This document shows, piece by piece, positions 612 through 5,623 of a stretch of 5,623 nucleotides of DNA. A program made the position numbers and the translations under genes. Within the stretch, counting starts at the first letter, position 1, and each line of letters starts with the position of its first letter. The stretch comes from an uncultured Methylococcaceae bacterium (GTDB lineage: Bacteria > Pseudomonadota > Gammaproteobacteria > Methylococcales > Methylomonadaceae): assembly GCA_903839795.1 (NCBI GenBank), contig CAIMDR010000197.1, forward strand, positions 1 to 5,623. The letters run 5' to 3'. A model generated the notes under the pieces. That model did no database searches. It saw only the letters and a list, made by a program, of their open reading frames with translations, and was not told the origin of the DNA.

Positions 612-2063
612 TTAACTTGACCACGCTTTACTTGAAATGAGCGCTTGAAAGGCTTGCAATAAGTATAGTGCGTTATTTCTGATGTTAAAATGAGTGGCAT
701 AAAAAGAATCACTCATTAATTTTTCTTCCTCAGAAGCATCGGCAGGTATATTTAATTGGGTCGGTCCCAGTAAGCCGGAGGGTGTTTGATCGGCAAGTTT
801 TTCCCATTCTTCGATGCGTTTTTCCGCCGTTTCAAGGTTTACTGGTAAAGAGCCCATGAAACTGAGATCGCCACTGATAACAGCAAGAATACGCGGTAAA
901 TAACGCAGTACAGGCGCACTCACATTCCATTCTCCTACCGAGAATTCAGTTCGTTCCGGCGCACCAAAATCGTTTAAGTCTATTTTATTACCTCGTAAGC
1001 GCTTGATGAGATAAGGCTTTAAAGGATTTTGCATTAAAGCGAAACCTAAAGCCAACAACCAAAACGGTAAGCTTAGAATCAGTAAAAACAATCCGGCAAG
1101 GCGATTAAAAACGGTACCCAAACCTTTATTAAAGGGGGTAGTCTTTAAATCTGCCAGCAAAAATGTTTCGTTAATTTTAAGAATCGCCCCATTATCGACA
1201 CGAATCAGATCATTGCCTCGAACGATTGCGTTACGCAATTCAACTAATTCACCAATATAACTATGTGGCAAGATAACCGAGGACTCGATGGTAACCCTGC
1301 TATCAATAATAACGTTATCACCAATAACAACTTCTCCCGTCAATTCAACCGAAGGATGCAAATGGCAATTTGAGCCAATCAAAGCAATACCTTGTTTTAA
1401 ATTTTGCGGATAGGCTTCGGTATTGCGACCTTGAGTCAGTCCCAATGCAGTTTGGCGACCTGGAATTAATAAGGTATCAAGTCGTCCGGCAGCCGCATCA
1501 AGATTGGTCTGATGAAAAGCGGCCAGCGAATCAATTCTGGCCACACAACCGTTCACGTCCACCGTTGTTTTGGCGAACGCTATCGGGTTTAAATCAGTCC
1601 AGTTTAACGTTTCGATATCAGCATCAACCGCATTACGGCAAAGCAACATATAGGCATTTTCTTTGCCATACAAAGCTTGAACGCAAGGAGAGGTGGGTGA
1701 TTCTGATTGTTGTAAAAAATATTTGATTGATCCGCTTCGAATAATATCACCACGCAAAATTAAGAAAGGTGATACTGGCGGGTTTTGCAGTTTGGATAAT
1801 TCTTGTAAGGTTGACTCCTCACCACGACAGGTGCTGAAGGTTAAGGTCATGCCCCAACGCTCACCGTTGCCCAATATCTCTTTGACCTGTTCTGCAAATG
1901 GAGAAAGGATAATGTGCGCTTTTCGCACTCCTGCATCTACCAGAGCTTCCAGGGTATGTTCCAGAATCAGTTTCCCGGCTAACGGTAATAAAGCAACGCA
2001 GGTTTGATCGGTTAGCGGCAATAATTCCTGCCCTTTGCGATCAGCAAAAATTATGACATCCAT
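612..2063 (-). CDS. Degenerate nucleotidyltransferase / hexapeptide beta-helix / pseudo sugar-phosphate transferase fusion
   Basis: This 483-residue protein has three regions. Residues 1-~200 resemble sugar-nucleotide pyrophosphorylases (LLPLAGKLILEHTLEAL, residues 25-41; RGD with D106). However, the G-x-G-T-R signature reads R-K-G-Q-E (9-13) and the following Pro-Lys is lost, so nucleotidyl transfer is doubtful. Residues ~225-285 carry hexapeptide repeats (VVIGDNVIIDSRVTI) typical of a left-handed beta-helix. Residues ~315-483 look like a sugar-phosphate transferase: a hydrophobic helix with a kink proline (P333), then YLPRILAVISGDLSFMG (388-404). The catalytic Asp-Glu is R387-Y388, and the GPRP motif reads GSLP. 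The ATG overlaps the previous stop codon (TGATG) and has a good GGAG site. It is the last gene of the operon. I infer a non-catalytic, membrane-bound partner of the upstream fusion protein. A sugar-binding or regulatory role is possible. The coding call is firm; the function is not. Confidence 0.85.
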   Translation of the reverse strand: MDVIIFADRKGQELLPLTDQTCVALLPLAGKLILEHTLEALVDAGVRKAHIILSPFAEQVKEILGNGERWGMTLTFSTCRGEESTLQELSKLQNPPVSPFLILRGDIIRSGSIKYFLQQSESPTSPCVQALYGKENAYMLLCRNAVDADIETLNWTDLNPIAFAKTTVDVNGCVARIDSLAAFHQTNLDAAAGRLDTLLIPGRQTALGLTQGRNTEAYPQNLKQGIALIGSNCHLHPSVELTGEVVIGDNVIIDSRVTIESSVILPHSYIGELVELRNAIVRGNDLIRVDNGAILKINETFLLADLKTTPFNKGLGTVFNRLAGLFLLILSLPFWLLALGFALMQNPLKPYLIKRLRGNKIDLNDFGAPERTEFSVGEWNVSAPVLRYLPRILAVISGDLSFMGSLPVNLETAEKRIEEWEKLADQTPSGLLGPTQLNIPADASEEEKLMSDSFYATHFNIRNNALYLLQAFQALISSKAWSS

Positions 2064-4132
2064 CAGTAAGCTCCACGGCTTAATAATACGGCCGGAATAG
2101 TTTGTAGTAACAGTTTAAGATCAAGCAACAAAGATTGGGATTGTATGTATTCAACATCCAATTGTACTTGCTGCGGAAAGGGTATATCTGATCGTCCTGA
2201 AACTTGCCAGATACAAGTAATACCGGGTATGACTTCCAAGCGTTGACGATCTTGTAACGAGTATTGGTTTACCTCGGAAGGTAGTGCGGGGCGGGGGCCA
2301 ACCAGTGACATATCGCCCTTAAGCACATTCCATAATTGCGGTAATTCATCAATGGAAGCCTTACGGATAAAACGACCTATCGGAATGATGCGCGGATCAT
2401 TTTTCATTTTAAAAATAACGCCGCCGGTCATTTCATTTTGCGCTGTCATTTCTTTTAAACGTGCATCGGCGTCGCAATACATGGAACGAAATTTCCACAT
2501 CGTAAACAATTTTCCCCGGTGGCCAACACGGGTTTGTTTATAAAAAACCGGCCCGGGGGAACTCGCATAAATCAGTAACATGATGATTAAAAATACCGGC
2601 ATCAATACAATCAGTAATATAAGGGACGCAACTATATCAATCAATCGCTTGACCAGATAAGTGCCGCGAACCACGGTTAACCATAACAAACGTTTTAATT
2701 GTAAACGAAAAGAAACCTGTCCTTTAAAAAAGTTGATGCGACTATAACGATTTAATAATTCTCTTTGTAATGCCTGACTGGTTTGTTTATCACGCGCAGC
2801 ACCGGCTGTCGAGTCCGGTTTAGAGCCTTTTTGCCTTTGTAACCATACCCGATAAAGAAATAAGGGGTTACCAATGATATAGCGTTTCCACATGCGACCG
2901 GGTTCTTGTATTAATCGCCAAGTCCATTCCAGACCGATTTCGCGCATCCAGACCGGTGCTCTCACTATGCGTCCCGAATAAAAATCGAATAAACCTCCAG
3001 TGCCCAAACAGACACTCGCGTTTAATTGTTCACGGTTACGCGCCAGCCATAATTCCTGTTTGGGAGCGCCAAATCCTACCAAGAGAATATCAGCGCCCGA
3101 GTTATTAATGTCTTCAATGAGCTCGGCTTCCTGTTCGCTATCAAAAAAACCGTCATGGACACCGGCAATAATTAACTTAGGGTAGCGTTGTTGCATGGCC
3201 TGAGCCGTGAGCTCGGCAACACCGGGCAAGCCGCCCAATAAAAATAATCGATGACCACCTTTAGCAGCACGTTCGCATAAGCGAGGAAACAGGTCAGTCC
3301 CGTTAATGTTGGACAGTAATGATTCATTGAGCATTCTACAGCCGATGTTAATCCCGATTCCATCCGGCAAGATTCTATCAGCAGCTTGTAAAACTTCCCG
3401 ATAGGCTGTGTGTGTATAGGCAATGTTAAGACAGTCAGGGTTAACAAAAGCCAGCAAGGTCTGTTGTTTTTTCAGGATGCGCTGCTCGATCCAGTCCAAA
3501 GCTTCAGTCATCGTCGTATTGACAATATCAATCCCCCAAAAATGCAGCATTGGCGGCGTCTGTCTGGGTTCATTGCCTCCCATAATTGAGCCGGCTACAC
3601 CGCGCAGACTGACCCCTATATGTTCTTTAGTGGTCGCACTATAATAAAATTCATGATCCGTCAACTGCTCATCATCGTAAGCCAAACCGATTTTCTTTCT
3701 GAGGGTATAGGGAGAAATGACGCCAGGTCTAACGCCAAATCTGAAAAAACCCTGCGCAGACAGTTCAAGTAATTCTTCAGGTAGTATTGCGCGAGGTCCT
3801 GCCCAAGCTAAATCGCCACGTAATACATTCAATAACACGGCAAAATCTTTGCCAGGCTTGGAGCCTGCAAAGCTTAAACGTTCAAATTCTTGTTGAAAAT
3901 ACCCTAGCTGTTTTTGTCGCTTAAAAACAAAACCGGTCTGGCTGTAAGCGAGCAAACCACGTAGAAATAATAAAGGCGATAAAAATAAGAGTAACAGCAG
4001 ACTGGTCAATAGATCAAAAATACGCGGTAAAGCAGACTGCGCAAGGTACAGCAACGGCTGAAACAATCGGATATAAGTCGGCTTGGGACGCTGGCCTAAA
4101 GGCCCTGGTATTATTTGGATTGGCTTAGTCAT
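2063..4132 (-). CDS. Three-domain fusion: degenerate sugar-phosphate transferase, GT26 (WecG/TagA/CpsF) glycosyltransferase, active-type sugar-phosphate transferase
   Basis: 689 residues. Residues ~36-185 are a shortened sugar-phosphate transferase copy: a membrane helix with S52-P53, then LLNVLRGDLAWAGPRA (100-115). The catalytic pair is replaced by K95-D96, and about 45 residues before it are missing. Residues ~198-432 are a GT26 domain with VNPD (230-233), PDGIG (256-260, probable catalytic D257), GFGAPKQELW (353-362) and the C-terminal RAP...GLEW...RMWKRY segment. After a polar linker, residues ~490-689 form a full PglC/WcaJ-type transferase: a membrane helix with kink P512, KFRSM (547-551), D595-E596, GPRP (612-615) and PGITCIWQVSGR (636-647). 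By family, the last domain moves a sugar phosphate from a UDP-sugar to undecaprenyl phosphate, and GT26 adds a second sugar, often a ManNAc type, on the cytoplasmic membrane face. An in-frame TAA two codons upstream rules out a longer protein. The ATG has no clear Shine-Dalgarno site, so coupling to the previous gene is likely. Sugar specificity is unknown. Confidence 0.92.
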   Translation of the reverse strand: MTKPIQIIPGPLGQRPKPTYIRLFQPLLYLAQSALPRIFDLLTSLLLLLFLSPLLFLRGLLAYSQTGFVFKRQKQLGYFQQEFERLSFAGSKPGKDFAVLLNVLRGDLAWAGPRAILPEELLELSAQGFFRFGVRPGVISPYTLRKKIGLAYDDEQLTDHEFYYSATTKEHIGVSLRGVAGSIMGGNEPRQTPPMLHFWGIDIVNTTMTEALDWIEQRILKKQQTLLAFVNPDCLNIAYTHTAYREVLQAADRILPDGIGINIGCRMLNESLLSNINGTDLFPRLCERAAKGGHRLFLLGGLPGVAELTAQAMQQRYPKLIIAGVHDGFFDSEQEAELIEDINNSGADILLVGFGAPKQELWLARNREQLNASVCLGTGGLFDFYSGRIVRAPVWMREIGLEWTWRLIQEPGRMWKRYIIGNPLFLYRVWLQRQKGSKPDSTAGAARDKQTSQALQRELLNRYSRINFFKGQVSFRLQLKRLLWLTVVRGTYLVKRLIDIVASLILLIVLMPVFLIIMLLIYASSPGPVFYKQTRVGHRGKLFTMWKFRSMYCDADARLKEMTAQNEMTGGVIFKMKNDPRIIPIGRFIRKASIDELPQLWNVLKGDMSLVGPRPALPSEVNQYSLQDRQRLEVIPGITCIWQVSGRSDIPFPQQVQLDVEYIQSQSLLLDLKLLLQTIPAVLLSRGAY
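2071..2074 (-). promoter_or_regulatory. Ribosome binding site of the last gene
   Basis: GGAG on the minus strand sits 7 bases before the ATG at 2063. It lies inside the final codons of the upstream gene, whose TGA stop shares one base with this ATG. The site fixes the start and suggests translational coupling of the two proteins. Confidence 0.7.
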
Positions 4133-4138
4133 TTCTAT

Positions 4139-4654
4139 TTAAGTTTGTTGTCTGGGAGAACGCGGTTTAATGTGTGCAGGCACACCTACAGCCAGTGAAT
4201 TGGCTGGAATATCTTGCAATACCACGGCATTGGCACCAATCACGACGTCATCACCGATATGAATAGCGCCTAAGAGCTTGGCACCGGCACCAATATCAAC
4301 ACGGTTGCCAATCACCGGTGCTCCGGCGATACCCGTGCGTTTCAAGCCGATGGTAACCCCGTTGCGGATAATGACATCATCACCGATAACGGTATCGCCA
4401 CTAATAATGATGCCACCAAAATGTTCGATAATTAAGCGCTGTCCAACCTGCACTTCGCAAGGAAGATCAATGCCCGTTAAAATCTGCGACAGCAACTTTA
4501 GAATTCTATAGGCAAAAGAAAACGGTAAGCGTAACCAGCGCTGTTGAATAGTGTATCGCCAGCGTCCAAAACGATACACCAGCATGACACCTAAACCTTG
4601 CCGACTTAAATCGCCACCGTAGGTGTGCCAATCTTCGCGAATATGCTCAAACAT
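4139..4654 (-). CDS. CysE-like hexapeptide acyltransferase
   Basis: 171 residues from the chosen ATG. The N-terminus MFEHIREDW and the region ~63-165 of hexapeptide repeats (IIISGDTVIGDDVIIRNGVTIG, DIGAGAKLLGAIHIGDDVVIGANAVV) match serine acetyltransferase-type left-handed beta-helix enzymes. H78 in IEHFGG fits the catalytic histidine of the family (DHATG in CysE). The ending VGVPAH is the usual cap of the helix. CysE proteins are roughly 270 residues; this one lacks most of the N-terminal helical domain and belongs to the short class often found in polysaccharide clusters. I infer acetyl transfer from acetyl-CoA to a sugar or lipid-linked glycan in the cytoplasm; true serine acetylation cannot be excluded. 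The start is taken at 4654 rather than the GTG at 4663 (174 residues), because only the ATG has a Shine-Dalgarno site. A 6-base gap separates it from the next gene. Confidence 0.88.
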   Translation of the reverse strand: MFEHIREDWHTYGGDLSRQGLGVMLVYRFGRWRYTIQQRWLRLPFSFAYRILKLLSQILTGIDLPCEVQVGQRLIIEHFGGIIISGDTVIGDDVIIRNGVTIGLKRTGIAGAPVIGNRVDIGAGAKLLGAIHIGDDVVIGANAVVLQDIPANSLAVGVPAHIKPRSPRQQT

Positions 4655-4659
4655 AAAAT

Positions 4660-4664
4660 TCACC
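4660..4664 (-). promoter_or_regulatory. Ribosome binding site overlapping the upstream stop codon
   Basis: GGTGA on the minus strand lies 5 bases before the ATG at 4654 and complements the 3' end of 16S rRNA. Its TGA (4662-4660) is also the stop codon of the upstream glycosyltransferase, so termination and re-initiation occur at the same place. The alternative GTG at 4663 lies inside this motif and has no such site upstream. This decides the start. Confidence 0.6.
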
Positions 4665-5623
4665 AGGGTTGATGCGGAGAATTAAGGCCGCCCTGCGTCG
4701 CTTGCCAGGCTTGCTGCCAGAGTTGCACAATATGTCTGGATTCGGCCGCTTTTGCAGGAGCACGGGTTTTATTTCGCCAGGCACGTAAGCCATGCCAAGC
4801 CTGCTCAATAGCTTTTACCAAGCGGGTGTAAAGCAAACCATGCCACTTTCGATAATATAATAACTGACTCTGCATACGCCAAAGTGTTAGTTGTTTACCA
4901 GAGCTTGAAAACGCCAGTTCATCAACTGTTTCTGAAGAAGCGCCGCCAACATGGGTAATGACCAGATCTGGCCAGTAATAAACCTTGAACCCCGCTTGAT
5001 AGATGCGGCGGCACAAATCAACTTCTTCGTAATAAAGAAAAAAACGCGGGTCAAACAGACCTATTTGCTCAACCAGGCTTCTGCGTAAAATTGCGAAAGC
5101 ACCAGGTACCCAATTAACAGGCGTCATTTTTAAAGGATCGGCCCAAGAGCGATCAAAACGACCAAAAAAACGGGATTCAGGATAACGATTGGCCAAACCT
5201 GACAACGTTAAAGTGTCATTTAATAAAGAAGGAAACAGCCGCGCTGAAGGTTGCCAAGCACCTTGTGTGTCTTGCAAAAGACCGCCGCCCATTCCCGCAT
5301 CGGTATTGTCTTCCATGTGTTTTAATGCACGCTCCAAGGTATCGGGTGGTAATTGCGCATCGGGATTAAGCAATACTAAATAACGTCCTTGCGCCAGCGT
5401 TAAAGCCATATTGTTGGCATTACCAAAGCCCAGATTAGTCTCGCTGGTAATTAAATTAACCTCTGGATACTCTGCGCGTATGATAGCTATTGAGTCATCG
5501 CGAGAGGCGTTATCCACCACAATGACTTCAAAATTGCCTGCCATTGTTTGCGCTCGCAGGCTATCAAGGCAAGAGCGCAATAGGGGTGAACTGTTGTACG
5601 TTACAATAAAAACCGATAAATTC
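4660..5623 (-). CDS. GT2 family glycosyltransferase (WbbL-like), 5' end cut by the window
   Basis: At least 320 residues are visible. The frame stays open to the window edge and reads NLSVFIVTYNSSPLLRSCL, the classic first beta-strand of GT-A family 2 enzymes. The TTG at 5580 is therefore an internal leucine, not the start, and only a few residues are probably missing. In visible numbering, motifs are VVDNAS (D37), NLGFGNANN, LNPDAQ (D88, nucleotide/metal binding), WVPGAF, and YYEEVDLCRR (E199, E200, D202), which holds the probable catalytic acidic residue, then THVGG (H224). This pattern is typical of rhamnosyltransferase-like COG1216 proteins that extend O-antigen or exopolysaccharide units from nucleotide sugars at the cytoplasmic membrane face. 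Donor and acceptor cannot be read from the sequence. The C-terminal ~90 residues are rich in Trp, Arg and Gln and may contact the membrane. Its TGA overlaps the next gene's ribosome binding site. Confidence 0.93.
   Translation of the reverse strand, partial: NLSVFIVTYNSSPLLRSCLDSLRAQTMAGNFEVIVVDNASRDDSIAIIRAEYPEVNLITSETNLGFGNANNMALTLAQGRYLVLLNPDAQLPPDTLERALKHMEDNTDAGMGGGLLQDTQGAWQPSARLFPSLLNDTLTLSGLANRYPESRFFGRFDRSWADPLKMTPVNWVPGAFAILRRSLVEQIGLFDPRFFLYYEEVDLCRRIYQAGFKVYYWPDLVITHVGGASSETVDELAFSSSGKQLTLWRMQSQLLYYRKWHGLLYTRLVKAIEQAWHGLRAWRNKTRAPAKAAESRHIVQLWQQAWQATQGGLNSPHQPW

Follow-up and report, generated by a model that had tools for sequence, protein, structure and literature searches.

Putative pseudoenzyme modules of the phosphoglycosyl transferase family beside an intact copy in two adjacent genes of an uncultured Methylococcaceae bacterium

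Many O-antigens, capsules and exopolysaccharides are started by monotopic phosphoglycosyl transferases (PGTs). To our knowledge, the handover of the lipid-linked product from the PGT to the next enzyme is poorly understood. Here we analyze a stretch of 5,623 nucleotides, called the window below, that comprises positions 1 to 5,623 of contig CAIMDR010000197.1 (assembly GCA_903839795.1) from an uncultured Methylococcaceae bacterium. Two adjacent genes of the window, here named A and B, encode three PGT modules. The C-terminal module of B has its catalytic motifs intact. The other two, the odd modules, can, judged by their sequence and predicted fold, be classed with confidence as pseudo-PGTs. 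A conserved gene set that keeps the PGT fold as a non-catalytic part would be genetic evidence that the first two steps of polysaccharide synthesis are coupled, and it makes that coupling testable in a cultured methanotroph.

The closest described systems are as follows. PglC and WbaP belong to family PF02397, as does the C-terminal module of B, a typical member. The odd modules share with them the predicted fold, a helix with a central proline and a glycine framework but lack the catalytic Asp-Glu and, except for its F, the KFRSM motif. Some large PGTs carry an N-terminal PF13727 domain, seen in P0194–P0196; a Pfam search of B for this WbaP-type domain found none at E values up to 10. GMPPA and eIF2B-epsilon resemble A in joining a nucleotidyltransferase-like domain and a left-handed β-helix in a protein that is not a pyrophosphorylase. 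Unlike them, A also contains a dead PGT module and is encoded together with a PGT and a WecG. Our paper searches, beyond whose reach lay a 2021 review and a 2021 PNAS survey that is said to list PGT fusions, found no description of pseudo-PGTs. The WecG/TagA/CpsF glycosyltransferases (GT26) are represented by the middle domain of B, which conserves six TagA residues and differs at F229 and N275 and in its placement on a dead PGT module. Bifunctional PGTs, like B, have a PGT and a glycosyltransferase in one chain; in the description of the class, functional domains are fused to the PGT catalytic domain (PMC10942596), whereas the extra PGT modules here appear to be catalytically dead. Post-translational control of polysaccharide is described for EpsW–EpsZ, in which the response regulator EpsW is reported to act directly on the PGT EpsZ (PMC12802240), and for SypA/SypE, in which the STAS protein SypA governs biofilm and polysaccharide in Vibrio fischeri, its partner and mechanism being given as unknown (PMC4517449). 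Rsb-type genes adjoin the present cluster in some relatives, but in those two systems the partner role falls to a response regulator or a STAS protein, and here it would fall to pseudo-PGT modules.

Genes A and B follow one another on the minus strand with a 1-base overlap, at the coordinates given by the initial annotation of the window, and are organized as follows.

612..2063, minus strand: gene A, 483 amino acids; putative pseudo-nucleotidyltransferase, left-handed β-helix and presumed dead PGT
1419..2063, minus strand: A residues 1–215, NDP-sugar pyrophosphorylase-like domain with an ADRxGxEL signature (PF00483, E 6e-7)
1164..1418, minus strand: A residues 216–300, left-handed β-helix of hexapeptide repeats (PF00132, E 2.8e-8)
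615..1166, minus strand: A residues 300–483, presumed dead PGT module (PF02397, hhalign, AlphaFold2, fold searches)
900..905, minus strand: R387-Y388 of A, at the catalytic Asp-Glu site (alignments)
2063..4132, minus strand: gene B, 689 amino acids; presumed dead PGT, WecG/TagA glycosyltransferase and active PGT
3548..4081, minus strand: B residues 18–195, presumed dead PGT module with a re-entrant-type helix containing S52-P53 and with GPR kept (hhalign, AlphaFold2, fold searches)
3845..3850, minus strand: K95-D96 of B, at the catalytic Asp-Glu site (alignments)
2813..3556, minus strand: B residues 193–440, WecG/TagA/CpsF (GT26) domain with catalytic-base Asp D257 (PF03808, E 4e-64; TagA alignment; conservation)
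2066..2668, minus strand: B residues 489–689, PGT module with KFRSM, Asp-Glu and GPRP intact (PF02397)
2345..2350, minus strand: D595-E596, catalytic dyad of the active module of B (alignment)

The initial annotation had proposed three PGT modules in two genes, and the Pfam profile PF02397 recovers them as three stretches in B (268.7 bits summed) and a single match in A. The match in A scores 30.5 bits against a cut-off of 27 and covers profile positions 91–178, that is, the C-terminal half only; the two N-terminal stretches of B score 21.2 and 20 bits singly and 43 jointly, against the same cut-off. A six-frame search of the bacterium's own genome returned separate matches at 2084–2650, 636–899, 3656–3838 and 3869–4024. 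Profile–profile alignment of the modules alone, which set the odd modules against 19 PGTs, bears out the proposed replacement of D595-E596 by K95-D96 in B (hhalign probability 99.6, E 6e-25) and by R387-Y388 in A (97.4, E 9e-12). Single-chain AlphaFold2 models give both odd segments a PGT fold, with predicted local distance difference test scores of 85.2 for A and 88.6 for B and with a long helix containing a central proline in each. Their strong matches in Foldseek/VIA searches are PglC and WbaP only, all others being weak. The profile search and the comparison with the PglC fold that had been put forward as checks on the idea return matches for both odd segments, and neither another fold nor, among the A- and B-type homologues examined, a normal dyad came to light. 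Chance resemblance of the odd modules to PGTs was rejected on the profile and fold evidence. The same genome encodes one further full PGT, on another contig (L002, G000:C600; a frame of 472 amino acids).

Landmark residues were tabulated for 64 A rows, 86 B rows and 19 active rows. The helix-breaking prolines, P333 in A, P53 in B and P512 in the active module, are real: they are found in 64/64, 86/86 and 18/19 rows, respectively, and Ser-Pro stands at the helix break of B in 58 of the 86. Both odd modules also have module positions G49, G118, G124 and G149 and, mostly, D/E119. Both have lost Asp-Glu and the K, R, S and M of KFRSM, which are replaced or gapped; the F persists, in B in 85 of 86 rows and in A in 45 of 64. 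The initial annotation held that KFRSM and GPRP were eroded in both copies. That is correct for KFRSM, the F apart, but for GPRP only in A, which reads GSLP. In B the GPR part survives, with Arg at position 114 in 82 of 86 rows. B, and not A, also retains module positions R8, D11 and N114.

These residues bear on two other explanations. The first, that the odd modules are active transferases using other catalytic residues, we find scarcely credible. D96 of B does stand at the second place of the lost dyad, but of the 86 B rows only 13 have Asp and 8 have Glu at position 96, none of the 64 A rows has an acidic residue at position 387 (R in 62, A in one and H in one), and most of KFRSM is gone as well; unconventional catalysis was rejected on this table. 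The second is that the dead module of B serves only to hold the lipid acceptor, gripping the undecaprenyl-diphosphate sugar for B's own WecG and joining neither A nor the PGT. For this comparison we assume that PglC residue numbers match our alignment columns. The retained helix proline and GPR arginine, together with a basic residue (K or R) in 68 of 86 B rows at the SGR arginine of active modules, would suit such a grip, as Arg88, Arg145 and Lys179 of PglC contact undecaprenyl phosphate in simulation (PMC10519829) and its Pro24 is tied to polyprenol binding (PMC6133551). However, the column matched to PglC Arg88 is a gap in B, and lipid holding leaves unexplained both the dead module of A and the A–B fusions described below. 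We regard this explanation as unlikely, though worth keeping in mind.

The dead state is conserved in relatives. The A-type set (n = 118) consists of the window protein and 117 of the 120 proteins listed, from 228 found, with lengths of 470–500 residues. Position 387 is Arg in 117 of these and Ser in one, and P333, G398, W420, D452 and W481 are present in all 118. In most of the 70 B-type proteins, K or R is found at position 95 and G, D, S or H at position 96. A count of motifs, not of modules, in WecG-bearing proteins found Asp-Glu upstream of WecG in 0 of 134 readable proteins (two of 136, without the WecG motif, were excluded) and after WecG in 54 of the 56 proteins of 530–750 amino acids. 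In the fetched loci, Asp-Glu and KFRSM are present in 18/18 active PGTs, and the dyad is present in 0/22 pseudo-PGT–WecG proteins and 0/28 readable A proteins; here L013 lacks its C-terminus, L079 was taken from the printed sequence, and L011 and L061 are the same genome. Sequencing error behind the lost dyads was rejected, the state being fixed in more than 100 homologues.

The dead modules are under purifying selection. By Nei–Gojobori counts, the ratio of nonsynonymous to synonymous substitution rates (dN/dS) is 0.14 and 0.10 for the dead module of A (two unsaturated pairs) and 0.15 for that of B (one pair), compared with 0.04, 0.04 and 0.12 for the active PGT and 0.08 for WecG; the remaining pairs of these modules are saturated. 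A neutral leftover of duplication and fusion would fit the loss of most catalytic landmarks and a dN above that of the active PGT. Against such an origin are dN/dS values of 0.10–0.15, the near-invariant A residues listed above, R387 among them, and the retention of the odd modules in 7 of 36 sampled genera of the order and in two genomes of the Calditrichaeota phylum (L015 and L122), so that we consider it very improbable. The predicted fold, the loss of the dyad in all readable homologues examined and the low dN/dS support the earlier suggestion that the odd modules are pseudoenzymes.

Other residues also replace the dyad in the A-type Calditrichaeota protein (L015, P0198), and L122 has a matching dead module. 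In that phylum, a match over 1e-15 spanning the dead module was found in 2 of 9 genomes, the query's own included. A normal Asp-Glu is absent from every A- and B-type homologue examined. The one protein of nucleotidyltransferase, β-helix and PGT order that was seen to have the dyad is distant and comes from Ignavibacteria (L018 7221–8984, P0199), which may possibly represent the active ancestor type of A.

A and B are linked by co-occurrence, gene order and fusion. The order of the host, the methanotroph order Methylococcales, was represented by 121 genomes. A and the dead module of B occur together in 18 (A lies on two contigs in G081 and is partial in G109), B alone in one (G095, 87% complete), A alone in none and neither in 102. 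The association is strong over genomes, with kinship uncorrected (Fisher p 1.5e-20), and at the genus level (7/36, p 1.2e-7). In a class sample of 369 genomes, the bacterium's own included, A was found in 7, B in 6 and both in 5. Methylovulum miyakonense HT12 (L011), probably of the same family as the window's genome, has the same cluster. Of the 26 loci that extend 2.5 kb or more upstream of A, among which the one genome of L011 and L061 counts twice, WecG lies upstream in 24, with the dead module in 22 of the 24, and an active PGT in 18. The dead module, WecG and PGT are fused in the window and in 54 proteins. Fusions that include A exist in both orders: P0189 has A followed by pseudo-PGT–WecG in one chain, and 20 proteins of 881–933 amino acids have pseudo-PGT–WecG followed by an A-like part. 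Visual inspection of four full-length sequences gave this domain order. A precomputed β-helix-type domain is present in 19 of the 20, and the A rows shown align to the A-like part at 18–22% identity. One of the B–A fusions, P0252, was searched at 1e-100 against 398 genomes of the phylum and gave no match.

These genomic data, that is, fusions in both orders, gene order and co-occurrence, suggest that the odd modules are partners in an initiation complex, be it as scaffold, dimer or regulator. We propose, with a probability of roughly 55%, that the dead modules are membrane-embedded docking parts that join the WecG-type glycosyltransferase, the active PGT and A in one complex for polysaccharide initiation. 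In this scheme, undecaprenyl phosphate would receive a sugar phosphate from the active PGT. With its proline-broken helix and GPR arginine, the dead module of B would seat WecG on the membrane beside the active PGT, and WecG, so seated, would add the second sugar. A, a non-catalytic hub made of a dead pyrophosphorylase and a β-helix, would join by the dead PGT module that it carries itself. Membrane insertion, physical contact, the order of the reactions and the role of A are what we infer from the arrangement of the genes and modules.

The WecG domain of B, on which the initial annotation was silent, as it was on the pyrophosphorylase-like and β-helix domains of A, changes the picture most, together with these. 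The TagA residues Asp65, Asn39, Gln167, Arg214, Arg221 and Arg224 correspond to D257, N231, Q359, R406, R413 and R417 of B, each present in 70/70 B-type proteins. Two TagA residues differ: Thr37 is F229 in B (69/70) and Arg83 is N275 (70/70). The domain thus looks intact apart from these two, and its donor or acceptor contacts may differ from those of TagA, given Phe229 and Asn275. A tie between the loss of TagA Arg83 and the gain of the dead module was dropped, since Asn stands there in 6 of 8 readable other WecG fusions (3 of 11 were unreadable). TagA, a relative of WecG whose residue roles are described, is concluded to work as a monomer on the membrane, its soluble dimer being inactive (PMC6493773), which gives a reason for an anchor module.

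Several observations weigh against the docking proposal. The Foldseek TM-scores for the module of A are only 0.57–0.66. A occurs without a B match in G272 and G318 of the class sample, near a contig end in each, and G469 has a weak B match without a full A, with an A-like nucleotidyltransferase part following its PGT (L124). L077 and L078 have A without B nearby, the dead module of B being matched elsewhere in both genomes. The active PGT is not always linked, since none lies between B and A in L010 and in five genomes of genus g18 (G003, G017, G021, G041 and G049; loci L068 and L071–L074). WecG as such does not need the dead module, since it lacks one in loci of the Calditrichaeota and Neomarinimicrobiota phyla (L015 and L016 by Pfam; L119–L121 by tblastn). 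Lastly, fusions and co-occurrence denote functional linkage, not necessarily binding.

In the g18 loci L071, L072 (7116–8327) and L074, a membrane-looking frame of 404–423 amino acids occupies the usual place of the PGT; a Pfam scan of the L072 copy returned no match. L010 has a frame of 1189 amino acids (4294–7863) between its B-type gene and A.

A appears to be non-catalytic twice over, in its pyrophosphorylase-like domain as well as in its PGT module. Residues 1–215 lack the GxGxR-type signature of NDP-sugar pyrophosphorylases and the following Lys. Related nucleotidyltransferases of the order have AAGR/KGERM/L in 11 of 12 loci and AGGFGTRL in one, followed in all by PKPLL. In A the signature is ADRxGxEL, conserved in 118 sequences. 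Its Arg has given way to Glu13 in 117 of them, and in at least 113 V, P, I or T stands where PKPLL has Lys. The best PDB relatives of A by sequence are GMPPB and a bacterial nucleotidyltransferase, then eIF2B-epsilon. This ranking would suit a nucleotide-sugar sensor of the GMPPA kind, in which the dead pyrophosphorylase binds the donor and the dead PGT module throttles the real PGT, as would the invariance of D106 (118/118) and the precedent of GMPPA, which binds GDP-mannose and, itself non-catalytic, regulates its paralogue GMPPB (PMC11228364). However, nucleotide binding by A is doubtful because the signature Arg and the PKPLL Lys are both replaced, and a sensor of this kind seems to us quite improbable.

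Candidate genes of a partner switch follow A in some relatives, as HATPase_c_2 and STAS proteins, and in others a response regulator–SpoIIE protein and a HATPase are found. Among the loci with 1.5 kb downstream of A, tblastn matched a HATPase in 14 of 26 and STAS in 9 of 26. L063, L064 and L067 have weaker HATPase matches, and response regulator–SpoIIE proteins occur in L060, L063 and L074. A search of the bacterium's own genome, 83% complete and with contig ends, found no counterpart of the HATPase that lies after A in many relatives. These partner-switch genes may control the initiation complex. It is tempting, if speculative, to extend the docking proposal to an initiation machine built around pseudoenzymes. 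As its hub, A, dead in its pyrophosphorylase domain and in its PGT domain alike, would pair both with the dead module of B and with the active PGT. Assembly would be gated by a STAS-based partner switch, which would turn polysaccharide synthesis on post-translationally at the first two sugars. We hold this as a possibility that is well short of even odds.

L015 encodes a Calditrichaeota WecG protein (6390–7919) with C-terminal STAS domains, in two stretches. It is flanked by an active PGT on one side and an A-type double pseudoenzyme on the other, and is preceded by frames that look RmlA- and RmlC-like by eye. A WecG-STAS query gave matches over 1e-20 in 7 of 245 genomes of the phylum of L016. 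The fusion of WecG to STAS domains in a Calditrichaeota genome offers a lead on SypA-like STAS control of polysaccharide (PMC4517449).

Upstream of B, the window has two conserved neighbors.

4139..4663, minus strand: hexapeptide (acetyltransferase-like) protein
4660..5622, minus strand: family 2 glycosyltransferase, truncated by the end of the window

The opposite end of the window, positions 1–600 after A, is rich in repeats, with 65 matches in the bacterium's own genome, itself included. A 28-base piece at 566–593 recurs identically at no fewer than 11 places among the matches listed.

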